Assembly (NCBI RefSeq): GCF_001956985.1
Contig: NZ_CP019082.1
Span: forward strand, 6,386,001 to 6,450,000
Source: Paludisphaera borealis
GTDB taxonomy: Bacteria > Planctomycetota > Planctomycetia > Isosphaerales > Isosphaeraceae
Direction: 5' to 3'
DNA: 64,000 bases
Shown: one piece after another, positions 1 to 15,037 of the stretch
How positions within the stretch are numbered: the stretch's first letter is position 1
How the letters are laid out: every line of letters starts with the position of its first letter
The notes under the pieces: generated by a model
The model's database searches: none
The model's input: only the letters and a program-made list of their open reading frames with translations
Told to the model about the DNA's origin: nothing
Program-made: the position numbers and the translations under genes

Positions 1-1871
1 CACGACGAGGGAGTTCCGTAGACCGAACAGCCGGATGCGATCGCGAAGCGCCTCCCAACGCGCAGGCTCGCGCGGAGTCGTCCTCCAGAGGTCGAACTGG
101 AAGACTCCCTCGGCGGCCCTGGTTTCGGCGAACGAGGGATGCGGGCCGTGGACCTGCGCGAGTTCGCACGAGGTGCTGAGCGCCTGGAAGTAGATCTCCT
201 CCTGGATGCGGACGGACAGCTCCCTCGCTTCCGGGCGGTCGAAGGGCAATCGCAACTGGAAGAAGACGTCCTGGAGCCCCATGAGGCCGAGGCCGACCGG
301 CCGCCATCGCTTGTTGGACGCAGCCGACTCCGGAGTCGGATAGAAATTGATGTCCACGACCGCGTCGAGGAACTTCACGGCGGTCCGCGCGGTCTCCGCG
401 AGGCCCTCGAAGTCGAACCCCGCGTCGCCGACATGCCGGGCCAGGTTGATCGAGCCCAGGTTGCACACCGCCGTCTCGCCCGCCGAGGTCACCTCGACGA
501 TCTCGGTGCACAGGTTCGAGGAGTGGACGATGTTCGATGGGAGCAGCGTCTGGTTCGACTTCCGGTTGCAGGCGTCCTTGAAGTTCATCCAGCCGTTGCC
601 CGTCTCCGCGAGCGTCTTCATCATCCGGGCGTAGAGGTCCCGGGCTGCGACCTGCTTCATGGCGTGCCCCTCGGCCTCGGCCCGCGAGTACGCCGCGTCG
701 AAGTCGTCGCCGTGGAGATCCGAGAGGTGGGGGACGACCTTGGGGTCGAACAGCGACCAGCGTTCGCCGCTCTCGACCCGCCTCATGAAGAGATCCGGGA
801 CCCAGTTCGCCAGGTTGAGGTTGTAGGTCCGCCGGGCTTCGTCGCCCGCGTTGTCCTTCAGTTCGAGGAACTCCTCGATGTCGGCGTGCCAGGTCTCCAG
901 GTAGACAGCACACGCCCCTTTCCTCCGCCCCCCTGATTGACTGCGGCGACGGAGGAATCAAGCGTCTTCAACCAGGGGACGATGCCGTTGCTGTGCCCGT
1001 TCGTCCCGCGAATGAGCGAACCTCGCGAGCGGATTCGGTGATAAGCCAGCCCGATCCCTCCCGCGTATTTCGAGAGTCGGGCGACGTCGGCGTATCGGGC
1101 GTAGATGTCTTCGAGGTCGTCGCCCGGCGAGTCGAGCAGGTAACAGGAGGACATCTGCGATCGGGGCGTCCCCGAGTTGAACAAGGTCGGAGAGCTGGGC
1201 AGGTAGCGGTGAGCCGCCATGAGTTCGAAGAGGCTGAGAGCGTCGTTGACGCTCGTCGAGAGGCCGCAGGCGACCCGCAGGAAGAAGTAGGAGGGCGTCT
1301 CGGTCACGTCGCGGGCGACCGGATGGCGTAGCAAGTAGCGGTCGTAGACCGTGCGGAGCCCGAAGTACTCGAAGAGGTCGCACGATCGGTCTGCGGCCGA
1401 GTTCAGCTTCCGGGCGTTCGAGGCGACGAAACGAGCCGTCTCGGTAGAGACGAGGCCGAGGCGATGACCCACCGCGACCGACTGGGAGAAGGAATGGATG
1501 TCCTGGTTCCTTACCTCCTTGTCGATGTAGCGGTCCAAGAGCCGCGCCGCCAATTGAGAGTATTCGGGCTCCTCGGCGATAAGGGACGCGGCGGTCTGGA
1601 TCGAGAGCCGGTCGAGCTCGCGCGTCGTGGCCCCGTCGAAGAGGCCGCCGATCGTCTTCACCGCAATCCGCATGATGTCCACATGAGGGAGACCGCCTAC
1701 CGAGCGCTGCACCGCCCGGACGATCTTGTTGACGTCGACCGGTTCGAGCCCGCCGTTGCGCTTTCGCACGTGCATGCCCGACTCGGCGACCGCCGCCGAT
1801 TGCGCAGGCGGTTTCACCGTGTGAGGCGATGTGCCGTTCTCGGGAGCGACGACCAGAGGTTCTACGGACAT
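1..1871 (-). CDS. nrdA: Ribonucleoside-diphosphate reductase large (alpha) subunit, class I; frameshifted, 3' end outside window
   Basis: Reduces ribonucleotides to deoxyribonucleotides together with a NrdB radical subunit, which is not in the window and may lie beyond the left edge. The first 32 residues are a variable tail; an ATP-cone begins at about residue 33 (HVRKRNGG). The redox cysteine is seen in SSCYLLDSPGDD near residue 240, and the active-site motif SNLCTEI (Asn, Cys, Glu) is encoded near 508-530. The protein reads cleanly from 1871 to about 934, then needs a shift of one base: the motif that should read NQGGRRKGACAVYLETWH is split because a C6 run on the plus strand (928-933) is one base short of the seven required. 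Downstream of it the reading frame is open to the window edge. It lies 63 bp after the MetE-like gene with no terminator between them. Sure of the family; the frameshift may be a sequencing error. Confidence 0.93.
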
Positions 1872-1934
1872 GATATCTAAAGCCCCGTGCGATTGAGCGT
1901 CAGGAATAGGAACGACTACGACTCGCGCTTCGCT

Positions 1935-2966
1935 TCAGGGCAAGCCGGCAGACGATCGTGCAGCGGCGTACGAACGGATCGAGTCGCCGGCCCGTTGGGC
2001 GAGGGTGAAAGAACTATCGGTATCGGAGGTCGACGAGAGCCCGAGACCGCACGTCGCGGTGACCAGCGACTGCGACACGACGGCCGCCGGATCTCCGAGT
2101 AAGGATGCAAGGGCCAGCCAGCGCGATTCCATCGATTCGACGGTCATGGACGACGGGCCGGTCGGTGCGAGGCCGAAAGCCAAACGGCCCCCGCGAGCCA
2201 GAATGCCGCGGGCGAGGGAGTAGAAGTCGTCCGCGATCGGGAGATGTGCGTCGAAGGACAGTAGATCGAGGTCGATGTCCTCGAACGCGGCTGAGGGCAG
2301 AGTGGCGCAGCAGTGGATGCCGACGGCCGCGCCTTCGCGACGGGCGGCAGCCAGGACGCGTCGCAATGCCGAGGCGACCGCAGGGGCTGCGGGGCTCATA
2401 CCGTCGACGAGGGAGAGCGCCGGCTCGTCGAGCACGAACACCACGAGCAGCCCGAGGTCGCGGAGCCGCCGCACCTGCCAGGCGGCTTGGCGTTCGAGGA
2501 AACCGGCGAGGCGACCTAACCAGCCGGGAATCCGCGAGACCGGCCCTCCGTCCAGGTAGAAGCAGTGAGCGAGCGTCGCAGGGCCCTCCAACTGCGCCTT
2601 CACGGCCCGCGCTGCGGGGAACCGGCCCGATCGGATCGCCCGCTCCAGCGCGAAGAAACCTGCCGCGGTCTCCGGGATGAGCCCCGAGTTGCCGCCGTCG
2701 AGCGCAGCCGCGAACAACGGCCCCGCGCCGGGACGTACCGTCCAGCAATAGGGCCGGGAGATCGGTTCGAGGTACTGCACGAGCCTCCCCATGCCTTGCC
2801 CTATCACGCCCTCCCCCGCCGTACGGCGGGGGAGTTGAGGCCAGAATGGCAGTTCCGGGCAGGACTTGGCGACAAACTCGACCGCCTCGTCGGCGTCGAG
2901 GAAAGGAAGGCTGCCGACCCCGGTCGTGCACCCCGGGGACAAACGAGTCCATGAGGACGATGTCAT
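1935..2966 (-). CDS. Short MetE-like (methionine synthase C-terminal domain) protein
   Basis: 343 residues corresponding only to the catalytic barrel of MetE. It starts N-terminally with GVGSLPFLDADEAVEF, typical of this family. The zinc ligands appear to be present: H218 and C220 (IHCCATLP) and C306 (VTATCGLG). A DEPAL motif, the counterpart of the IDEPAL motif in MetE, is near residue 180. Such core-MetE proteins are known to transfer methyl groups to homocysteine from non-folate donors, for example corrinoid-linked or unknown donors; the donor here cannot be read from the sequence. Its ATG overlaps the metE stop by 4 bp, so the two are translationally coupled and presumably share B12 control. 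It could also be a uroporphyrinogen-decarboxylase-like methyltransferase for another thiol. Confidence 0.85.
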   Translation of the reverse strand: MTSSSWTRLSPGCTTGVGSLPFLDADEAVEFVAKSCPELPFWPQLPRRTAGEGVIGQGMGRLVQYLEPISRPYCWTVRPGAGPLFAAALDGGNSGLIPETAAGFFALERAIRSGRFPAARAVKAQLEGPATLAHCFYLDGGPVSRIPGWLGRLAGFLERQAAWQVRRLRDLGLLVVFVLDEPALSLVDGMSPAAPAVASALRRVLAAARREGAAVGIHCCATLPSAAFEDIDLDLLSFDAHLPIADDFYSLARGILARGGRLAFGLAPTGPSSMTVESMESRWLALASLLGDPAAVVSQSLVTATCGLGLSSTSDTDSSFTLAQRAGDSIRSYAAARSSAGLP

Positions 2967-5287
2967 GTCGGGCCTCGCTCCGTCGCGATGGCTTCAACTA
3001 GGCGAAGACGCACGACCCGTGCGGCCTCCACCAGCGTGGCCAAGGCGGGTTTGACCTCTTCCCACCGGCGGGTCTTCAGCCCGCAGTCGGGGTTCACCCA
3101 GAGCTGCTCCGGCGAGAGCACCGCGAGCGCCTTGCCGAGCAGATGCTCGACGTCCTCCCGCGTCGGGATGCGCGGCGAGTGGATGTCGTACACCCCCGGC
3201 CCGATCTCGTTCGGGTAGCGGAACTCCCCGAACGCCCCGAGCAGCTCCATCTGCGACCGCGACGTCTCGATCGAGATCACGTCGGCGTCGAGAGCGGCGA
3301 TCGAGTCGATGATGTCGTTAAACTCGCAGTAACACATGTGAGTGTGGATCTGCGTCTCGTCGCGGACCCCGGCCGAGGCGAGTCGGAAGGCGTCGACCGC
3401 CCATCGCAGATATTCGGCCCAATCGTCGCGGCGGAGGGGGAGTCCCTCCCGCAATGCGGGCTCGTCGATCTGGATCACACAGATCCCGGCATCCTCAAGA
3501 TCGGCGACCTCGTCCCGGATGGCCAGGGCGATCTGACGGCATGTCTCGCTACGAGGCTGGTCGTCCCGGACGAACGACCACTGGAGGATCGTCACGGGCC
3601 CGGTCAGCATGCCCTTCATCGGGCGCTCGGTCAGGGACTGGGCGTATCGAGTCCACTCGACGGTCATCGGGCCGCGCCGAGCGACGTCGCCGAAGATGAT
3701 CGGCGGCTTGACGCAGCGCGAGCCGTAGCTCTGCACCCAGCCGTTCGCCGTGAAGGCGAAGCCTTCCAGGTTCTCGCCGAAGTACTCCACCATGTCATTC
3801 CGCTCGAACTCGCCGTGCACCAGCACGTCGAGCCCAACCTCCTCCTGCCAGCGGACGGCCTCGGCGGTCTTCTCCTTGAGGAAGGCGTCGTACTCGTCGG
3901 CCCGCAGTTTCCCCGCGCGGAACGAGGCCCGGGCCTTGCGGACGTCCTCCGTCTGCGGGAACGAGCCGATCGTGGTCGTCGGCAGCAGGGGCAAAGGCGT
4001 GCGCCCGCGCTGGGCCACCCGCCGCGTCGGATATGGATGGGCCCGGACGAGCTGGTCGGGCGCGATCGCCGCCATCCGGCGACGGACGATCGTAGAGCGG
4101 ACCCGAGGCGACTCGCTGCGACCCTTCAGCGCGGCCCGATTCTCCGCGAGACTCTCGACGATCGACGGCAAGCCCTCCGACGCGCCGCGGGCCAGCAGGG
4201 CGACCTCGTCGAGCTTCTGGCGGGCGAACGCGAGCCACCTCTTCAACTCCGGCTCTAGATTCGATTCGCAATCCAGGTCGAACGGGACGTGGAGCAGGGA
4301 ACAGGACGGGGCGATCATGATGCGATCAGAGCCTAGCCGTGCGGCCGCCGCCTCGGCCACCCCCCAGGCTCGGGTCAGGTCCGTCTTCCACACGTTTCGA
4401 CCGTCGATCAGTCCGAGTGAGAGCGACTGCTCCGGACGGAGCAGCGGCAGCGCGTGCCAGAGCTGATCCGGGGCGCGGACGAGGTCCAGGTGCACCGCCT
4501 TCACAGGCAGGCGGAGCACTGCGGGAAGGGCCTCGCCGAGGTCGCCGAAATAGGTCGCGAGCAGGATATTCGTCGCCCCCGCCGCGCCCGCCAGCCGCGA
4601 ATAGATCTCCTCCAGGGTGGGGAGAGCCCGCGCGGAGGCGTCGGTCGTCAGGCATGGCTCGTCGATCTGGACCCACGCGGCCCCCGCCGCGGCGAGCGCG
4701 CCCAGGATCGCCTCGTAGACCGGAAGCAGCCGAGGCCAGAGCGTGATCGGATCGAAGTCCTTCCCCTTGGCCTTGGCCAGCAGGAGGAACGAGACAGGGC
4801 CGAGCAGGACCGGCCTGGTCAGAACGCCGAGCGCCTTCGCCTCGACGAACTCGTCGACCGGTTTGGTCGAGCCGAGGGCGAATTCCTGGCGCGGATCGAT
4901 CTCGGGCACGAGGTAATGGTAGTTCGTGTCGAACCACTTGGTCATCTCGAGGGCCGCCGCCCCGGCGCGCCCGCCTTCGTAGGCGATCCCCCGCGCCATC
5001 GCGAAGTAGCGTTCGGGACCCGCCGGCAAGTGGGCGAATCGGTCGGGGACCACCCCGAACATGACCGCCGCGTCGAGGACGTGGTCGTAGAGGGAGAAAT
5101 CGTTGCTGGGGACGTGGGTGATCCCCGCCGTTCGCTGAAGCTTCCAGTGGTCCGCGCGGAGCCGCCGCGCGACCGTTTCCAGCTCGTCGCCGCTCGACCG
5201 GTTCGACCAGAACCGCTCGAGGGGCTTCTTCAACTCGCGTTGCGCGCCCATCCGGGGGAAACCGAGGTTCGTCGCCGTCGTCATCAT
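2963..5287 (-). CDS. metE: Cobalamin-independent methionine synthase
   Basis: 5-methyltetrahydropteroyltriglutamate--homocysteine methyltransferase, the last step of methionine synthesis without B12; cytoplasmic. 774 residues, close to the 753 of the E. coli enzyme. The N-terminal barrel starts NLGFPRMGAQRELKK; the catalytic barrel starts at about 430 (LPTTTIGSFPQTEDVRKAR). The zinc site is complete: H650 and C652 (HTHMCYCEF), E674 (ISIETSRS) and C735 (NPDCGLKTR), each offset by nine residues from the E. coli ligands. An AGGAGC ribosome site precedes the ATG. It lies 50 bp after the DUF6580 gene, whose leader is a cobalamin riboswitch, as is common for metE. Confidence 0.97.
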   Translation of the reverse strand: MMTTATNLGFPRMGAQRELKKPLERFWSNRSSGDELETVARRLRADHWKLQRTAGITHVPSNDFSLYDHVLDAAVMFGVVPDRFAHLPAGPERYFAMARGIAYEGGRAGAAALEMTKWFDTNYHYLVPEIDPRQEFALGSTKPVDEFVEAKALGVLTRPVLLGPVSFLLLAKAKGKDFDPITLWPRLLPVYEAILGALAAAGAAWVQIDEPCLTTDASARALPTLEEIYSRLAGAAGATNILLATYFGDLGEALPAVLRLPVKAVHLDLVRAPDQLWHALPLLRPEQSLSLGLIDGRNVWKTDLTRAWGVAEAAAARLGSDRIMIAPSCSLLHVPFDLDCESNLEPELKRWLAFARQKLDEVALLARGASEGLPSIVESLAENRAALKGRSESPRVRSTIVRRRMAAIAPDQLVRAHPYPTRRVAQRGRTPLPLLPTTTIGSFPQTEDVRKARASFRAGKLRADEYDAFLKEKTAEAVRWQEEVGLDVLVHGEFERNDMVEYFGENLEGFAFTANGWVQSYGSRCVKPPIIFGDVARRGPMTVEWTRYAQSLTERPMKGMLTGPVTILQWSFVRDDQPRSETCRQIALAIRDEVADLEDAGICVIQIDEPALREGLPLRRDDWAEYLRWAVDAFRLASAGVRDETQIHTHMCYCEFNDIIDSIAALDADVISIETSRSQMELLGAFGEFRYPNEIGPGVYDIHSPRIPTREDVEHLLGKALAVLSPEQLWVNPDCGLKTRRWEEVKPALATLVEAARVVRLRLVEAIATERGPT

Positions 5288-5337
5288 TCAAGCTCCTAGA
5301 TTCGAGTGTCGTACGAAGAAAGGCTGCCGGCCGGAGA

Positions 5338-5907
5338 TCATGCGAGGATAGGAATCGCTCGTTCTCTCAATGCAGGGAACCTGCCCTCGGCGACGGCGAG
5401 CGTCCCGAATAGGAGGGTTGCGTCTCCCAGAAGCGTGTAACCGAAGAAAGGTATGGCCGAGGCATAGCAGTCCCTCATGCCGGCCAGCGTCCTGGGATAG
5501 AAGTAGACCCAGCATGCGGCATTCGTGATCAGGAAGAAGAGGAACGCGCCGAGCAGTGTTGCACCGGCGATCGGGAGGGGCCGTCGGCGCAGAAGGAGCC
5601 ACAGACCGAGGGTGACTTCCAGCAGGAAGCAGCCGTAGACGACCTCTGTCAGGGCATGAAACTGGAAGCCGAGGGCGAGGTCGCTCAGGGCCATCGAAGC
5701 GAGGGGCAATAGGAAAGCCGCGCGGCGATCGGCGAAGCAGGCGCCGCCGAAGAGGGCGCTCGCGCAGACGGGCGTGAAGTTCGGCGGATGGGGAAGGAGT
5801 CTGGCGGCCATGACCGCCAAAACGGCGGCGGCCACGAAGACGGGACGGATGGGTGCCGCGTGGCGCGAGCGAATACCCGCGCATTCGCGTTCGAACGAGG
5901 AATCCAA
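5338..5907 (-). CDS. Six-TM membrane protein of DUF6580 type under B12 riboswitch
   Basis: 189 residues from a TTG start at 5905-5907, chosen because AGGAAGG lies nine bases upstream and longer versions would run into the riboswitch. Hydrophobic segments near residues 20-35, 45-57, 60-77, 85-105, 110-130 and 150-170 suggest six helices. Family-like motifs are HPPNFTPVCASALFGGACF, the SDLALGF turn and FFLITNAACWVYFYP. The fold resembles small substrate-binding (S) subunits of ECF vitamin transporters. As first gene after a cobalamin riboswitch it may import a corrinoid or precursor, which is inference only. There is no ECF ATPase in the window. Confidence 0.75.
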   Translation of the reverse strand: MDSSFERECAGIRSRHAAPIRPVFVAAAVLAVMAARLLPHPPNFTPVCASALFGGACFADRRAAFLLPLASMALSDLALGFQFHALTEVVYGCFLLEVTLGLWLLLRRRPLPIAGATLLGAFLFFLITNAACWVYFYPRTLAGMRDCYASAIPFFGYTLLGDATLLFGTLAVAEGRFPALRERAIPILA

Positions 5908-5917
5908 GGGTAAGGTC

Positions 5918-5937
5918 CTTCCTGCCGGTCCGGGCAG
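5918..5937 (-). promoter_or_regulatory. Possible ribosome-site sequestering hairpin of the riboswitch expression platform
   Basis: On the minus strand CTGCC-CGGACC-GGCAG forms a short hairpin (5922-5937) whose 3' arm runs straight into the AGGAAGG ribosome site (5918-5924) of the TTG start at 5907. This is a plausible switch point for translational control. A 14-base perfect palindrome, TCCGCACGTGCGGA, lies upstream at 5970-5983 and could be an alternative structure. Confidence 0.4.
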
Positions 5938-6035
5938 ATGGAGGTGTCGGACCGTGAACGCAGGAGGGTTCCGCACGTGCGGATGAAGCCTGACCTGCCG
6001 CGTACCCGGGTCCGGGGCACCATTGGCGTCGCACG

Positions 6036-6208
6036 ACGGGCAGGTCTTCTGACTTACGGCTACGATCGATCCCCGAGCGGCCTTCCCGCGACGCACGCGT
6101 CGCAGTGGCTATGTGGCCGGGTCTCTCGCCGAATACAGCAGCGGCCCTGCGCCGGATTCTCACCGGCTTCCCTTTTCATCCTCCCGCCGACGCGGGAGGA
6201 ACCCGTCG
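6036..6208 (-). ncRNA. Cobalamin (adenosylcobalamin) riboswitch
   Basis: Read on the minus strand, the conserved landmarks appear in order: GGGTTCCTCCCG near 6208, GGGAAGCCGGTGAGAATCC near 6170, the CCGCTGCTGTATTCGGCGAG block near 6145 (counterpart of CCGCAACTGT), the core box AGCCACTG near 6105, GGGAAGGC near 6080 and the 3' box GTCAGAAGACCTGCC (B12 box) at 6039-6054. High B12 would switch off the downstream genes. The aptamer ends about 130 bases before the first start codon, leaving room for an expression platform. Confidence 0.96.
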
Positions 6209-8330
6209 ATGTCCGGAAGCATACCCCATTTTTTGTGCCCCGGCCAGGCGACTCGCAGAAAAGATCACCCCATTACATCGGGCCATCCAACTCAATCCAG
6301 CGGCGTGAAGCACCGTTTGACGCGGGGTTGCCGAGACGTTGCGGCATCACTCCAGCCGCCGAGTGGCCCTGCGTGCATGATCTTGACAACCCCTAATTCA
6401 TCAAGCCTTGGGAACCCGTGAAACCTCCCGTTTCGACGATTGACGTAGCACCTTGTTTCGCAGAAATGTCAATACCAAGCATGGAACTTCCTCTACGTTG
6501 TTCTCGCCACAACTGCTTCCCCGCACATTTTGCAGGCTCAACGCCTGAGATCGTAGGCCATGGTCTTGAATGAGCCGATGACGAGCCATCGTCGTCGCGG
6601 CAGATCGACCGCCAGACAAGCTGTTTGTCGTGAGGAATCAGCCACCAACGGGCATCCGAGATGCCCACACGTCAGAGTGCGTGAAGACCTCGCGGATGCT
6701 GTACTCGCGCCGGCCGAAGTCCACGGGCGATCGAGCAAGTTATGGGCGGCGAACCCACGTCCAGCATCGCCAACGTCGGTCCCGTGGGGCATGCTATGTG
6801 CTGTTCAGCCCAAGCTGCGACGTCGAAGGAATTGCAGCCCACAGACCCCTCCCGCCCGCGAAAGTCGGTGAGGTAGGACGATGGATCGTACTTGATTTTA
6901 AGCAACCGTCGAAGGTCGTCACCTATAGGGCTGCGCCCGCTCGCGAATCCAGATCCACCCGGCATGCGGCCGCAAGGGCCGTGATCGAATGCGGCCTGAC
7001 CGCCGCTGTCGAACTTGTGATCGCCGTCTGAGTTCACAGGTCCTGTCGTCGCGCCCCGCGGAGGAGGTTGGAGTTCTCAGCCTACTCGGCGTTTGCCGGC
7101 GGCTTGCTCGGGCGATTAACATTAATTAGGGCGGCCCGGACCGCCTCGGGTCGTTCTCGCATCGCCCGCGGATCACCTCGGGAGAACGCAGCGATACATC
7201 GGCCTCGGCTCGACCGGAGTCGGCCTGACGAGAGTCGGCGGCCTCGGGTCAATTTGCTCTCAACCAGCGGATTGAAGGTCCAAGTCCCTTGGGGCCATAT
7301 CCAATTCGAGTCGACTCAGGCCGACGATGTCCTTCGAAACCGGTCTTTTCTCGGCCCGAGCCCTCGACGTCCGTTTGATCGTCCGAATCCGTCTTGACGT
7401 CAAGACTCGAAGGATTCCGACTCAATGAGGCTACGGGGTTGGGCAAAGCCTTCGATTACGAGGTCGGCCTTCAGTCCACCGGTTCGTGGGATCGGACGGA
7501 CTTGGCTCCTCGCGAGGAACCGACAGCCAGTAGCAGACCCGGCGACTCCGTACGGACGAGACGACCTGAGCGTTTTCAGAGGAACGCAGAAACTGCGGCG
7601 GTAGAGCGACGCGGCCCAGGTCGACGGGTAGTGTGATCGTCTAACATCCGGTCGCATCCAACGTGATTCGCCTCGTGTCGAGTTGGACGACGCAAAGGCT
7701 CGATTGCCATTGAGTGCGACGGCGTACGTCAAGTGAGAGCATAGTAGGTCGTGGAAGTCGTACTCCCGACCGATCACCTCGCGATAAAGACAACCGCGCG
7801 TTCCAGCTCGGCGCGGATCATGGTCGCTCTTCGGTCGTAGGCCGGAAGGAAGACGGGCGCAGCAGAGGCTACGTCCTCCTCGTCGAGACGCCGGGCGGCC
7901 ACGAAGTCCTTCGGCCGGGGCAACGTCGCCGCGTCGCCGAACTTTGTGTTGCAAGGCGTGACAGCTATAGTAGGCGTGGAGGCCGTCGAGACGAACGATT
8001 CGGGTCCGGCACCCTGAATCTTTCGCCACGACGACCCCGTACGCCGACCGCTGGGCGAGAGCGACGAACGGGGCGCATAGATCGCATAGGGCGCATCGGG
8101 CGTGGGGCCTTGCCGGGACGTCACCTCTACAGGAGCACATATCGGGAGTGGGCACGAAGGGCCGCCTCTATGGGAGGTTGCACTGCTTGCACGCGCGGAC
8201 GATCGCCAGGATGCCGACCTTCACGGCGTCAGGCAACATCGGCCATCGGTTCATGATGGTTGCAAGCTCGGGGTCAATCTGACCAATGTCGGTGGGCAAA
8301 TAGAGGGCATCGGCCTCGGTCGATCGACAC
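6209..8330. other. Gene-poor stretch, probably decayed coding DNA
   Basis: About 2.1 kb without a frame that I can support. Several frames of 70-250 codons exist but have mixed codon use, many Arg/Ser-rich stretches and no recognisable domain. Short pieces on the minus strand look like ends of old genes, for example a run ending MPVGG near 6650 and one ending VVFIAR near 7774. The lower GC bias and interrupted frames suggest an eroded island. Confidence 0.4.
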
Positions 8331-8415
8331 AACCCATTGGCGGGCTTGGCTGTTGTGGATTTCGAGCATCGGTCTACGGCACCGAAGGTTATAGGTTCAA
8401 ATCCTATCGGGTCTA
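8331..8415 (+). pseudogene. Degenerate tRNA-Arg(ACG)-like gene
   Basis: The 3' two thirds fold as a tRNA: anticodon stem TCGGT/ACCGA with loop CTACGGC (anticodon ACG, U33 present), five-base variable loop AGGTT, T stem ATAGG/CCTAT with loop TTCAAAT, then CGGGTCT-A as 3' acceptor strand. The D arm (GCTG...GGAT...GAGC) has one mismatch. The 5' acceptor strand that should be AGACCCG is missing: GCGGGCT stands there, and only AACCC further upstream would pair. It may be a tRNA remnant left at an integration site or a broken copy. The anticodon call depends on the loop alignment. Confidence 0.5.
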
Positions 8416-8820
8416 TTGTCCAAATCCCACCGACTCCTTATCGAGCGACATCTCAAACTTTTCGCTCTTTGCGACGGGGAATCCCTTCCCCTCTCAACTC
8501 AGGTCCGTGCGACATGAACTCGAACGTCCAAGCTGGGCGGGTCGCTCTTCTTGAGTCCTGTTGACGATCCCCGCGGTCGGGCGATCCGAAGCGCAGCGGG
8601 GCATCCGCATCGGTACGGCGGTCGCAACGAGCCGCGACTCAGCTGGCTGTCGACGAGCATCGGAATCAACCGAATGTTCCTCCTCGGCGACCCAAGTTGC
8701 TTGGATGCAACTTGCGCCGGTCGAATTCACGGCCGCGCCGGAACTCTAGGTCTTAATCGACCGCGCGCTTCGTATCAAAGGACAGGGACAAGCGAACCGA
8801 ATCTTGAGTTGAAAATCATC

Positions 8821-9132
8821 ATGGGTTTCATCGTTCATCCGTCGAAATGGGAAGCCGAGCATGCCGGCGCGATCCTCGCCGGCCAAGCGTATCAGTCGAC
8901 GCACGACGGGCGGTTGCCCGACACGGCCATGTGGAAAATGCTGGAATTTCGCCACTCACTGAACCCGTCCCGGTTCGACCACTGGCATCCGAACGTGGCG
9001 CTGATCTTGGAGAATCGTGAGCCCGTCGGCTTCCAAAGCGTTCGCGTACTCCAACCGCACAGATGGATGGGACACATGAGAGGCCCGGGGGGGCGGACGA
9101 GGCCGCTCCGATCCAGATCGAGCACGCGATGA
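8821..9132 (+). CDS. Hypothetical protein, possibly truncated
   Basis: 104 residues beginning MGFIVHPSKWEAEHAGAIL. The first 75 or so residues look protein-like, with the motifs FRHSLNPSRFDHWHPN and VALILENRE; the last 20 are Arg/Gly-rich and look like read-through. I do not recognise the family. No strong ribosome site precedes the ATG. It lies between the degenerate tRNA and the orphan PEP-CTERM tail, in a region that looks like decayed DNA. Confidence 0.4.
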   Translation: MGFIVHPSKWEAEHAGAILAGQAYQSTHDGRLPDTAMWKMLEFRHSLNPSRFDHWHPNVALILENREPVGFQSVRVLQPHRWMGHMRGPGGRTRPLRSRSSTR

Positions 9133-9319
9133 TTCCGCCGTCCATCTCGGCTTCGACGACGAGCACGGCAGAGCAGCCGACGTTGTCCGCCATCCAGACG
9201 GTCCCCGAGCCGTCCGCGGTCTTTCAAGGGCTGGTGGCCGTCATGCTGGCCGCGGCCTACCTCGCCAACCGTCGCCGGATGCGTCCTGACGCTCAGGCGC
9301 GGTCCACAAGTCCGGCTCG
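9063..9319 (+). pseudogene. Orphan PEP-CTERM sorting tail
   Basis: A frame open from 9063 encodes TVPEPSAVFQGLVAVMLAA followed by a basic end (YLANRRRMRPD), at 9198-9290. This is the PEP-CTERM layout: a VPEP motif, one membrane helix and an Arg cluster. In other bacteria it directs proteins to the exosortase sorting system. The body of the exported protein is absent: before the tail there is only a short Ser/Thr-rich piece (SISASTTSTAEQPTLS). The frame does not stop after the Arg cluster but runs into the antisense of the next gene, so this looks like a gene fragment. Confidence 0.45.
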
Positions 9320-10729
9320 TTACGACGGCATCGAGGCGCTTTCGCCGGCCAGCCAGCCGGTGCTCCAGGCGGCCTGGAAGTTGTAGCCGCCGATGAGGCC
9401 GTCGAGGTTCAGGACCTCGCCGCACAGGTGGAAGCCGAGGACGAGCCGGCTTTCGAGGGTTCGCGGGTCCACCTCGGCGAGGTGGACGCCGCCGCTGGTG
9501 ACCTCGGCCTTTTCAAAGCCGAGGGTGTCGGTGATCGGCAGTGCGAGCCCCTTGAGCGCCTGGACGATGCGAAGGCGCTCCGACCGCGACAGGTCCGGGC
9601 CGATCCGGGTGCGAGGCACGCCGCAGACGTCGAGGAGGCAGTCGGCGAGCCGATGGGCGAGGTCGGCCGAGAGGATCGAGCTGACCGAGCTTCGACCCTG
9701 ACGCGTCGCGGTCTGAAGCCGCTCGTCGAGTTCCTCTCGCGAGACGCCGGGGCGAAGGTCGAGCCGAAGTTCGAGTCGGTCGGAGCCGTCGTACCGAGCC
9801 ACGGCGCGGCTGACGTCGAGGATCGCCGGTCCGCTCAGCCCGAAGTGCGTGAAGAGGACCGCCTCGCGGCGCTGCTGCAGCGGAGGCCCCGACGGCCCAT
9901 GAACCGAGGCGACCACGTCCGAGAGGGTCAAACCCTTGAGCGTCAGCGGCCATTCCGGCACGATCCGCAAAGGGACCAGGGCAGGGCGGGGGTCGATCAG
10001 CGTATGGCCGAACGCCTGGGCGACCGCGTATCCGTCGCCGGTCGTTCCGCAGCCGGGGTACGACTTCCCCCCCACGGCCAGGATCACGCGCCGGGCGTCG
10101 ATCGAGCCCTCGGCCAGGACGATCCGGAAGCCAGCCGACTCTCCGTCCTCCGCGTTCCGCCTCTCTACCGACCGTACGGGGCTCAGGCATCGCAGCTCTG
10201 CGCCTGACCGTTCCAGGCGTCGCGTCAGGGCTTCGAGAACATCGACGGCCCGGTCGGATACGGGGAAGAGCTTGCCGTTGCCTTCGATCTTCACGGCCAG
10301 GCCTTCGGACTCGAACATCCGCACGGTCTGGTCGACGTCCAACCGCCGCAGCGCGTGGCCGAGGAACGGGCCGCCCGCGCCGAACGCGTCCTGGATCGCG
10401 CGGGTCCCCCGGCGCTGGGCCGGGTCGAACGCCGGGTCGATCGGTCCGGAAACGGCTTCGAGCCGGCGCAGCCCCCGGGCGTTGGTGATGTTGCACCGGG
10501 TCCCGCCCGACATCAGGATCTTCACCCCCGCTCGACGGTTCTTCTCGACCAGCACCACCCGGGCGCCGCACTCGGCGGCGCGGATCGCCGCGACCAGGCC
10601 GGCGGCCCCGGCTCCCAGCACGGCCACGTCGTATTGCTGGTCGGATCGGTCGAGAGGCTCTGCCGTGGTCACGAGAAGGATGCCGCCTACAAAGGGGGAG
10701 GATTGAGGTCGCGGCTGACGACCCGACAC
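9320..10729 (-). CDS. NAD(P)/FAD-dependent oxidoreductase, HI0933/YhiN/BaiN family
   Basis: 469 residues from the longest start, or about 450 from a GTG at 10672 (VTTAEPLDRSDQQ), which fits the family length better. A Rossmann FAD-binding site is at about residues 33-60 (VAVLGAGAAGLVAAI ... VVLVEKN). Family signatures are KILMSGGTRCNITN, the VILAVGGKSYPGCGTTGDGY loop and the end motif HLCGEVLNLDGLIGGYNFQ. Members are flavoproteins of poorly known function; BaiN is linked to bile-acid dehydroxylation, others to unknown reductions. It is monocistronic here, with a repeat cluster upstream. Confidence 0.88.
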   Translation of the reverse strand: MSGRQPRPQSSPFVGGILLVTTAEPLDRSDQQYDVAVLGAGAAGLVAAIRAAECGARVVLVEKNRRAGVKILMSGGTRCNITNARGLRRLEAVSGPIDPAFDPAQRRGTRAIQDAFGAGGPFLGHALRRLDVDQTVRMFESEGLAVKIEGNGKLFPVSDRAVDVLEALTRRLERSGAELRCLSPVRSVERRNAEDGESAGFRIVLAEGSIDARRVILAVGGKSYPGCGTTGDGYAVAQAFGHTLIDPRPALVPLRIVPEWPLTLKGLTLSDVVASVHGPSGPPLQQRREAVLFTHFGLSGPAILDVSRAVARYDGSDRLELRLDLRPGVSREELDERLQTATRQGRSSVSSILSADLAHRLADCLLDVCGVPRTRIGPDLSRSERLRIVQALKGLALPITDTLGFEKAEVTSGGVHLAEVDPRTLESRLVLGFHLCGEVLNLDGLIGGYNFQAAWSTGWLAGESASMPS

Positions 10730-12381: not shown

Positions 12382-12918
12382 CTAGGTTGCGGCGTCGGGG
12401 GCGTCAAACCGATCGGGGTCGTCGCTGTCGAGCGTGAGGGCGGCCATGAGGCGGTCGGAAAGCCGTGGCGAGGCTTCGGGGAGGTCGATCCGGACGCGAC
12501 GAGAGGAGGCGTCGAGGGGCTCGATCGCGACCCACCAGGCGTCGGCCGGCAACAGGTTACGGACGCGGTCGGCCCACTCGACCAGACACACGCCCCCCGC
12601 CTTCCAGTAGTCGGCCGGACCCAGGTCTTCGAATTCGGCCGGCGAGGTCAGCCGGTAGACGTCGATATGGTAGACCGGCATCCGGCCTTCATATTCATGG
12701 ATGAGCACAAAGGTCGGGCTGGCGATCGCCCCGGGATCGACGCCGAGCGATTCGGCGATCGCCCGCGACAGCCGGGTCTTCCCGGCGCCCAGCGGCCCGA
12801 CCAGGGCGACGACGACGTTCGGGGCGAGAACGTCGGCGAGCGCCTGGCCCAGCCGTTCGGTCTCGCCCTCGTCGTCGAGGTCGATTTGCAGGCCGGATTC
12901 GGATCGAAGAATATTCAT
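12382..12918 (-). CDS. tsaE: tRNA threonylcarbamoyladenosine biosynthesis ATPase
   Basis: 178 residues. TsaE works with TsaB and TsaD to attach the threonylcarbamoyl group to A37 of ANN-decoding tRNAs. The P-loop is GPLGAGKTRLSRAI; family signatures are SPTFVLIHEYEG, VYHIDVYRL and the VEWADRV motif. Start ATG at 12918 overlaps the thiL stop (ATGA), so the two are coupled. The slightly long, Asp-rich C-terminus is not conserved in the family. Confidence 0.95.
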   Translation of the reverse strand: MNILRSESGLQIDLDDEGETERLGQALADVLAPNVVVALVGPLGAGKTRLSRAIAESLGVDPGAIASPTFVLIHEYEGRMPVYHIDVYRLTSPAEFEDLGPADYWKAGGVCLVEWADRVRNLLPADAWWVAIEPLDASSRRVRIDLPEASPRLSDRLMAALTLDSDDPDRFDAPDAAT

Positions 12919-13877
12919 CGATTCCGCCCCGCGAGATGGTCGAAACCTCGGGGCTGGACCGGGGACGTACGGCCGTCGCGGGTGCGAAGGCGGAGGCCGG
13001 GCTCCGCCGTGATCACCCCCACGCGATAGAGCTGTACGCCGTCCGGCGGCGAGGCCAGGAGTTGCTCGGCCCGTTCCGGCGCGACGGTCAGGCAGAGTTC
13101 GAAGTCCTCGCCGTCGTTGAGAGCGTGGTCGAGCGCGGAGACGCCGTCGGCCTGGCTCTGGTCGACGGCGTCGGGATGGATCGGGATCGCGTCGGCGTGC
13201 AGCTCGGCGCCGAGCCCGCCGCTCTCTTCGAGGATGTGGCCGAGGTCCGAGGAAAGGCCGTCGGAGAGGTCGATCATCGCGTTCGGCGAGGCGGCTTCCG
13301 CCAGCGCGAGGGCCTCGTCGACCCTCGGCTCGGGTCGGAGGTGGCGGCCCCGGAACAGGCTGCCGCCCAGGGGACCCGTCACGAAAACGACGTCGCCCAC
13401 TTGCGCGCCGGAACGAGGCGCCGCGCCCAGCGGCGTCGTGTCGCCGAGCAGGGTGACGGAGATCACGAGCGGGCCGTCCCAGGCGTTGGTGTCGCCGCCG
13501 ACGAGGACGACGTCGAACCGATCGGCCATCCGCTTGAGACCTTCGTGAAGTCCCTGAGCAACGGCGACGGCGTCGGCCCGGGGCAGGGCCACGGCGACCA
13601 CGGCGAACCGGGGCACGCCCGCCATCGCGGCGATGTCCGAGATGTTCGCCCCCATCGCCTTGTAACCTACCGCCTCGGGGCCGTCGTCCTTCAGTCGGAA
13701 GTGGCGGCCGTCCATCAACATATCGGTCGTCACAAGCGCAAATGACTCGCGGGAGAAATCGACGATCGCGCAATCGTCGCCGATGCCCAGGATCACGTCG
13801 TCCCGGGGTTCGTCCGACTGGCTGCGGCGAATCCAGTCGATCAGCCCGAATTCACCGGTCGGCTTCGACTCGCTCAT
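12915..13877 (-). CDS. thiL: Thiamine-monophosphate kinase
   Basis: Phosphorylates thiamine monophosphate to the active diphosphate. 320 residues, typical length. Motifs are GEFGLIDWI at the N-terminus, GIGDDCAIV, TTDMLMDGRHF, ANISDIAAMAG, GGDTN and the late DLSDGLSSDLGHIL and LNDGEDFEL, all part of the AIR-synthase-like ATP and metal site. It overlaps tsaE by four bases and glycerate kinase by four bases, so it lies in the middle of a coupled operon. Confidence 0.96.
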   Translation of the reverse strand: MSESKPTGEFGLIDWIRRSQSDEPRDDVILGIGDDCAIVDFSRESFALVTTDMLMDGRHFRLKDDGPEAVGYKAMGANISDIAAMAGVPRFAVVAVALPRADAVAVAQGLHEGLKRMADRFDVVLVGGDTNAWDGPLVISVTLLGDTTPLGAAPRSGAQVGDVVFVTGPLGGSLFRGRHLRPEPRVDEALALAEAASPNAMIDLSDGLSSDLGHILEESGGLGAELHADAIPIHPDAVDQSQADGVSALDHALNDGEDFELCLTVAPERAEQLLASPPDGVQLYRVGVITAEPGLRLRTRDGRTSPVQPRGFDHLAGRNR

Positions 13878-15037
13878 ACGCGACGGTCTCCCCGCTTGCG
13901 GTGTCGGCTGCCCGCCAGAAAGCCTCGAAACGCCTGCTCAGCGGCCTTTTCAAGTAGGTTCGACGCCTCGGCGACGGCGGTTTCCAGGCGGATGGGACCG
14001 GGGCAGATGGAGAAATAGGCGTCGATCCCCTCGTCGAGCGCCTTCTCGGCGCCGTCGCCGATCGAGCCCACGAGAGCAATCGTCGGGCAGCCGAACGAAC
14101 GAGCCAGCCGGGCGACGCCGACGGCCGTCTTGCCGAATGCGCTCTGGGCGTCGAGCGAGCCCTCGCCGGTCAGGCAGAGGTCGGCCCTTTTGAGGTGGTC
14201 CTTGAGCCCCACGGCGTCGATGACGAGGTCAATGCCGCGTTCGAGGCGTCCCCCCGCAAAAGCCACCAGCCCGCCGCCCAGCCCCCCCGCCGCGCCCGCG
14301 CCAGGGATCGTGGCGATCGAGACGCCGAGGTCGCGCTCGACGACTTGAGCAAGCCTGGTCAGATTGCGATCCAGTTCGGCGACCATCTCGGGCGTGGCCC
14401 CTTTTTGCGGGCCGTAGACGGCCGACGCTCCATCGGGACCGCAGAGCGGGTTCGTCACGTCGCACGCGACGGCGATCTCGACGCCGGAGAGTCCCGGCGT
14501 ACGCCCCCCGGGCTCGATCCGGGCAAGGCGTCCGAGTGGGCCGCCGCCCGGCCCGATCTCCTGGCCGTCGGAATCCAGCAGACGGAACCCGAGGGCCTGG
14601 GCCAGACCGGCTCCGCCGTCGTTGCTCGCGCTGCCGCCGATGCCGACGATCAAGCGTCGAGCGCCCGCGGCGACCGCCGCCAGCAGCAATTCACCGGTCC
14701 CTCGCGTGGTGGTCGAAAGCGGGTCGCGCTTGTCGGCGGGAACCAGGACGAGTCCCGAGGCTGTCGCCATCTCGACGACCGCGGTGCGGCCGTCGCCGAG
14801 CATCCCGAACCGCGCCTGGACGGGCTTTCCGAGGGGGCCGGTCGCCTCCGCCGTGTGAAAGGTTCCGCCCGTCGCGGCCACAAGGGCTTCGACGATCCCC
14901 TCGCCTCCGTCGGCCATCGGCACTTGCTCGATCTCGGCCGAGGGCAGTACCGATCGAACCCCGCGCGCCATGGCCTGGGCGGCTTGCGAGGCGGTCAGGC
15001 TGCCCTTGAATTTGTCTGGAGCGATGACGACTCGCAT
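13874..15037 (-). CDS. Glycerate 2-kinase (GlxK/GarK family)
   Basis: Phosphorylates D-glycerate, normally to 2-phosphoglycerate, linking glyoxylate or serine breakdown to glycolysis. 387 residues, usual for the family. Seen: VVIAPDKFKGSLTA at the N-terminus, MADGGEGIVEAL, the GIGGSASNDGGAGLAQALG loop, VACDVTNPLCGP, the glycine-rich PGAGAAGGLGGGL and CLTGEGSLDAQSAFGK. The start ATG at 15035-15037 gives APDKFKGS at residue 5, as in homologues. It ends overlapping thiL and begins 47 bp after csrA, so all four probably share one transcript. Confidence 0.95.
   Translation of the reverse strand: MRVVIAPDKFKGSLTASQAAQAMARGVRSVLPSAEIEQVPMADGGEGIVEALVAATGGTFHTAEATGPLGKPVQARFGMLGDGRTAVVEMATASGLVLVPADKRDPLSTTTRGTGELLLAAVAAGARRLIVGIGGSASNDGGAGLAQALGFRLLDSDGQEIGPGGGPLGRLARIEPGGRTPGLSGVEIAVACDVTNPLCGPDGASAVYGPQKGATPEMVAELDRNLTRLAQVVERDLGVSIATIPGAGAAGGLGGGLVAFAGGRLERGIDLVIDAVGLKDHLKRADLCLTGEGSLDAQSAFGKTAVGVARLARSFGCPTIALVGSIGDGAEKALDEGIDAYFSICPGPIRLETAVAEASNLLEKAAEQAFRGFLAGSRHRKRGDRRV

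Follow-up and report, generated by a model that had tools for sequence, protein, structure and literature searches.

A displaced 3′ part of tRNA-Arg(ACG) as the most likely right boundary of a 25.6-kb genomic island in a planctomycete genome

Cobalamin-riboswitch operons of B12-independent isoenzymes, namely MetE and class I ribonucleotide reductase, are known from Streptomyces. Another described system close to the present locus is the genomic island integrated in a tRNA gene. Islander (PMC4383910) recognizes such tDNA islands through a set of filters: an intact tRNA and a tRNA fragment on the same replicon; a 3′ fragment that lies downstream, in the same orientation, and reaches the tRNA end; a length of 2–200 kb; a fragment that falls short of a full tRNA gene and is free of overlap with Pfam domains; an integrase gene inside the island; and an uninterrupted site in a relative without the island. 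The locus described here was read in a window of 64,000 nucleotides (C1:6386001-6450000) of a 7.65-Mb genome in three contigs, designated G000. Like the Islander islands, it comprises a tRNA gene, a same-orientation 3′ fragment 25.6 kb downstream, an integrase-like gene on the side of the tRNA, and a repeat extending over the anticodon arm. With respect to the individual filters set out there, both copies occur on the same replicon, the 3′ fragment is downstream and in the same orientation, the enclosed length is 25,579 bases, and the fragment is not a full tRNA. Two features depart from those islands: the integrase is too divergent, and its frame too broken, for PF00589 recognition in G000, and the cargo is an operon of B12-independent enzymes. 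We judge it to be a tDNA island of the classical type, whose integrase belongs to an uncurated family and whose cargo is unusual.

The first-pass annotation had placed a degenerate tRNA-Arg(ACG) at 8331-8415 of the window. The tRNA-Arg-like sequence is real, with a tRNA-Arg(ACG)-like Rfam RF00005 match at 8342-8415(+) (32.9 bits, gathering 29, E 0.0051), but the recognizable copy begins at 8364 rather than 8331. With 8320-8420 as query, a genome search hit, besides the query itself, a single further place at C1:6368733-6368784 (52 bases at 94%, E 2.3e-16). This place forms the 3′ portion of a complete tRNA-Arg(ACG) gene, C1:6368711-6368784(+); the gene scores 70.6 bits with RF00005 and is also called by ARAGORN. 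Window positions 8364-8415(+) correspond to tRNA positions 23-74 of 74, with 49 of 52 bases identical and three substitutions. The fragment reaches the exact 3′ end of the tRNA, and the anticodon arm, variable loop, T arm, and 3′ acceptor strand, correctly described beforehand as intact, all match the intact gene. The second copy of the 3′ half, for which a genome-wide check had been suggested, is thus present: both copies are on the + strand of contig C1, with the fragment downstream of the intact gene. When the sequence that follows this gene was scanned without gaps, the fragment scored 43, against 10 for the next-best place and 11-12 for three shuffled tRNAs, and the same genome search found no further fragments of tRNA-Arg(ACG) in G000. 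Among the ORFs nearest the fragment, the three that were scanned (8551-9132, 7714-8256, and 7400-8155) carry no Pfam domain; a further ORF, 8102-8554(+), spans the fragment and reads through the tRNA sequence. The broken tRNA is most likely a displaced 3′ part that marks the right end of a 25.6-kb island. As side observations on tRNA calling, ARAGORN with introns allowed gives two long-intron candidates in this region, and a dense tRNA array outside the window, at C1:1528259-1530276(-), holds 17 tRNA-family matches in about 2 kb, several of them low (30 to 64 bits).

The interval between the two copies, C1:6368785-6394363, would place the left end of the island 17.2 kb left of the window and its right end at window 8363, with window 1-8363 as its right part. 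GC content does not set this interval apart (0.67, vs 0.62 on the left and 0.66 on the right); its gene content is as follows. Two overlapping ORFs on the opposite strand (L012:3052-3708 and 3569-4516) lie at the tRNA 3′ end and form the integrase-like gene, followed by a helix-turn-helix (HTH) protein with a match to PF12728 and weak ones to excisionase families of PHROGs (E 0.0013 and 0.023). The interval also has a DUF3846 protein and a D12-class DNA methyltransferase with a strong match to a PHROG (phage) family (6.6e-43), as well as several ORFs without a match. An IS5-type transposase, an IS4-type transposase, and a carbon–nitrogen hydrolase come before a minus-strand operon that comprises, from left to right, NrdB and a two-frame NrdA, an ORF of 343 aa, MetE, the gene of a DUF6580 protein, and finally a cobalamin riboswitch; the 3′ fragment is 2.1 kb right of this riboswitch. 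Two of the island genes, the integrase-like gene and NrdA, have frame changes, both near C/G runs that make sequencing error and decay indistinguishable here, so that either may be the source. For both genes, relatives with a longer open frame exist.

The integrase-like gene adjoins the tRNA 3′ end and reads as one recombinase in two frames, with the frame broken. Its fragments gave no convincing match in Pfam, NCBIfam, PHROGs, or PDB sequences, and a six-frame PF00589 search of the genome up to E 0.1 found 8 places, none inside the interval. No relatives turned up in the phage collection or in viral contigs, and profile–profile comparison of the family with 12 and 5 recombinases found nothing; among plasmids, two records match weakly (33% over 48 aa, E 0.5), in genes annotated as integrase/recombinase. 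A structure model was of low confidence (mean pLDDT 45.6), and we draw no support from it. A four-row profile of the family matched 32 places in 24 of the 397 genomes of the class (G000 included), with eleven of the matches in open frames of 476-589 aa, although those ranked last are weak, reaching E 8.9e-4, and could represent other families. Flanks of up to 1.5 kb were scanned for tRNA genes at 29 of the 32 loci, that is, at all except that of G000 itself and two matches without a locus. A tRNA occurs in the flanks at 18 of these 29; twelve are tRNA-Arg, nine of them ACG, with Lys, Asp, Ser (2), Leu, and Gln making up the rest. At the remaining 11, some with flanks cut by contig ends, there is none. 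As a control, 12 strong PF00589 loci had a flanking tRNA in three cases, all Met.

This family resembles the tyrosine recombinases of PF00589 in its position beside tRNA genes and in the order R, K, H-x-x-R, Y along its alignment. Across 14 aligned rows, that of G000 among them, K, H-x-x-R, and Y do not vary, and the box-I arginine is present in all 11 rows that reach that position; in G000 this arginine sits at the frame change and is read in the C-terminal frame only. We take these residues to be those of the tyrosine recombinase catalytic site. Among ten long-frame family proteins, three match Phage_integrase weakly (3.1e-4, 0.002, and 0.011). These three fall below the Pfam cut-off (best score in the family 21.0 bits, vs 27.1), and the other seven that were scanned have no Phage_integrase match, as is the case for the G000 fragments. 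On the strength of the weak matches and the conserved residues, the family is probably a divergent tyrosine recombinase. The earlier expectation of a nearby integrase is thus borne out insofar as the intact tRNA has next to it an integrase-like gene from a tRNA-associated family, but none of the curated models searched recognizes the G000 copy convincingly.

Evidence that the tRNA-Arg(ACG) gene is used repeatedly comes from other genomes. The relatives search matched the gene in each of its 59 genomes, counting G000, and at least six others have a 3′ fragment farther downstream, at a distance of 1 to 88 kb and with strand and contig unchanged (G004:C117, G005:C57, G014:C5, G019:C420, G025:C1, and G053:C1); G018 has a 36-nt 3′ fragment of tRNA-Arg. 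A Phage_integrase search of five such intervals, with those of G014 and G018 set aside, found a gene inside the interval in G004, G019, G025, and G053, and none in G005. Given the recurrent 3′ fragments and the Phage_integrase genes between the copies, the tRNA-Arg(ACG) gene serves repeatedly as an integration site. In G149, G393, and G169, relatives in which a whole integrase frame adjoins tRNA-Arg(ACG), 60 kb were read in each and hold no full 3′-half repeat; in G141, 2.7 kb past the tRNA were read. G169 has 15-16-nt anticodon-arm repeats at +42.6, +52.9, and +55.3 kb, compared with shuffled scores of 10-11, and these partially support a crossover in the anticodon arm; G149 scored 12 vs 10-11 for shuffles, and G393 gave nothing above its own shuffles. 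By eye, the bases 3′ of the tRNA in G000 resemble those of the integrase carriers G175 and G012, and less so G029, but also those of G002, in which no integrase relative was found, and we therefore give this resemblance no weight.

The operon at the right of the interval resembles the cobalamin-riboswitch isoenzyme operons in having a riboswitch (6022-6221(-); Rfam RF00174, 110.3 bits, E 9.4e-27) upstream of MetE and NrdAB, on the same minus strand, together with MetH (C1:6335717-6336532) and NrdJ (C1:4923718-4925586) elsewhere in the genome. The DUF6580 ORF (5338-6096(-); PF20221 E 1.8e-44) overlaps the riboswitch at its 5′ end, so its true start is probably further inside. MetE, the cobalamin-independent methionine synthase, occupies 2963-5287(-) (PF01717 E 4.1e-160, PF08267 E 2.4e-119, TIGR01371 above cut-off), followed by the 343-aa ORF (1935-2966(-)), which has no Pfam match at E 0.1 and no NCBIfam match at E 0.01. 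The N-terminal part of NrdA (858-1871(-); PF03477, PF00317, and PF02867) changes frame near 915-939, by a C/G run, and the rest continues in another frame from window 939 leftwards to C1:6385596 and on (NrdA region C1:6385596-6387343); NrdB lies at C1:6384415-6385413(-) (PF00268 E 1.2e-76). By analogy with known riboswitches, the operon would be under cobalamin regulation. It differs from the isoenzyme operons described in lying between a tRNA and a displaced tRNA fragment, and in belonging to a genus whose five other searched members have no full-length MetE, showing weak C-terminal-domain matches only.

In the genomes searched, the distribution of this cargo is sporadic. Within the taxonomic family, the genomes with full-length MetE are G000, G014 and G031 (79-80%), and G035 (54%), while seven genomes of other families have MetE at 55-62%. 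Full-length NrdB relatives (84-91%) occur in G014, G031, G002, and G047, and G032 has a partial, broken copy; NrdB from another genus matches as closely (91%) as NrdB from the same genus (89%). The layout of riboswitch, MetE, and NrdAB recurs in G014 and G031, and G002 and G047 show it with nrdAB only; a cobalamin riboswitch lies upstream on the same strand at each of the four, and no tRNA was found near them in the stretches examined. Three stretches around related nrd operons (L096, L097, and L098) hold two cobalamin riboswitches each, paired on opposite strands within about 1 kb in L096 and L097. Considering the sporadic distribution of MetE and NrdB, and the presence of NrdJ and MetH elsewhere, the operon looks like a horizontally acquired B12-independent backup.

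On the far side of the fragment, the first chromosomal gene encodes an HI0933-like flavoprotein (9320-10729(-); PF03486 E 2.4e-66), found in all seven relatives compared; the adjoining gene, 12918-13937, is found in five of the seven. The stretch of about 0.9 kb from the fragment to this conserved chromosome (8416-9290) has no blastn match to the HI0933 regions of the seven relatives beyond short chance-level ones, its longest ORF has no Pfam match, and it is a new chromosomal junction. In five congeners, another conserved block lies left of the HI0933-like gene. ORF-based comparison further shows that a different block, shared by G002 and G003, follows their tRNA-Arg; we read it, without a family search, as formylmethanofuran-dehydrogenase genes. 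G000 has a relative of this block near C1:193,000-196,000. The left neighbor that congeners have beside HI0933 is absent from the 20 kb read at that place, and thus no simple inversion was found. Since the congeners carry other gene blocks on both sides of the junction, the chromosome has been rearranged here; as a consequence no empty site is readable, no clean one having been found in the relatives compared, and the island may be composite.

Other readings of this layout have to be weighed, beginning with the 22 bases that the covariance model adds to the fragment. One such reading takes 8342-8415 as a functional but unusual tRNA-Arg. The check for an intact covariance fold had a mixed outcome: the Rfam score exceeds the gathering cut-off, but marginally so when set against that of the intact gene, and ranks third weakest among 67 matches in the genome. 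The claim that the 5′ acceptor strand does not pair was not quite correct, as the covariance alignment allows seven of seven pairs (three Watson–Crick and four G-U). This pairing is nevertheless probably due to chance, because 200 of the 63,993 window places on the + strand offer a 7-mer pairing 7/7 with the fragment's 3′ acceptor strand, and because the 5′ part is at random-sequence level: 582 of 3,000 random window 32-mers score as high against the intact tRNA. In addition, two model positions after the acceptor strand are deleted (tRNA 8-9, in our reading), ARAGORN calls no tRNA in the 64-kb window, 8325-8420 folds with an unremarkable energy (z –0.36, equalled by 69 of 200 shuffles), and an intact gene with the same anticodon is present. 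We therefore reject a functional tRNA, which on these data is hardly credible. The segment 8342-8363(+) is not recognizably tRNA-derived, and would be island DNA.

Two further alternatives retain the fragment as a tRNA remnant while dispensing with a single element. A decayed duplicate of the tRNA-Arg, produced by segmental duplication or chromosomal rearrangement and with no integrated element, would suit both the rearranged chromosome right of the fragment and the failure to find an empty site. Such a duplicate does not readily account for a copy that runs from tRNA position 23 to the exact 3′ end, the pattern of a displaced end, with a 5′ part at chance level; nor for the integrase-like gene, excisionase-like protein, and phage-type genes between the copies, or for the same layout with other contents in at least six relatives, and we consider it quite improbable. 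Somewhat less improbable, though still unlikely, is a composite origin, in which integrase element and B12 operon were acquired in separate events, or the fragment derives from another, partly deleted element, such that fragment and tRNA are not the ends of one mobile unit. The IS5- and IS4-type transposases between the phage-like part and the operon point in this direction, as do the related operons in G002, G014, G031, and G047 without a tRNA in the stretches examined, and the rearranged right junction. Against it, fragment and tRNA agree in identity and orientation, and the genome search turned up no other fragment of this tRNA.

An island integrated in tRNA-Arg(ACG), with 8364-8415 as its attR end, is accordingly the reading we consider quite probable, and the earlier proposal of a 3′ half displaced by an integrated element gains support from the repeat, its orientation, and the integrase-like gene beside the intact copy. 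In the mechanism we envisage, a recombinase, probably of the tyrosine family, would have recombined the chromosomal tRNA gene with the element's attP, itself endowed with a copy of the 3′ part of the tRNA. The 3′ end of today's intact upstream gene would then have been supplied by the element, while the original 3′ end was presumably pushed to the far side, where it may have collected its three substitutions. The island would have carried the integrase gene, the excisionase-like HTH protein, phage-type genes, insertion sequences, and the riboswitch-controlled MetE/NrdAB operon as its cargo. This operon would be expected to be switched on when cobalamin is scarce, backing up the B12-dependent MetH and NrdJ.

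Overall, an odd tRNA fragment becomes a mapped island boundary, and tRNA-Arg(ACG) is shown to be a recurrent integration site in this group. Because the integrase family is hardly seen by the standard model, islands in these bacteria may be under-counted. A broader proposal, for which we would claim something short of an even chance, is that an uncurated planctomycete tyrosine integrase family, specialized in tRNA genes and mostly in tRNA-Arg(ACG), installed a mobile B12-bypass cassette here (riboswitch, MetE, and class I ribonucleotide reductase), such that B12 independence could be gained in one integration step. If this reading of the cargo is true, B12-independent methionine and deoxynucleotide synthesis would travel as riboswitch-controlled cargo.
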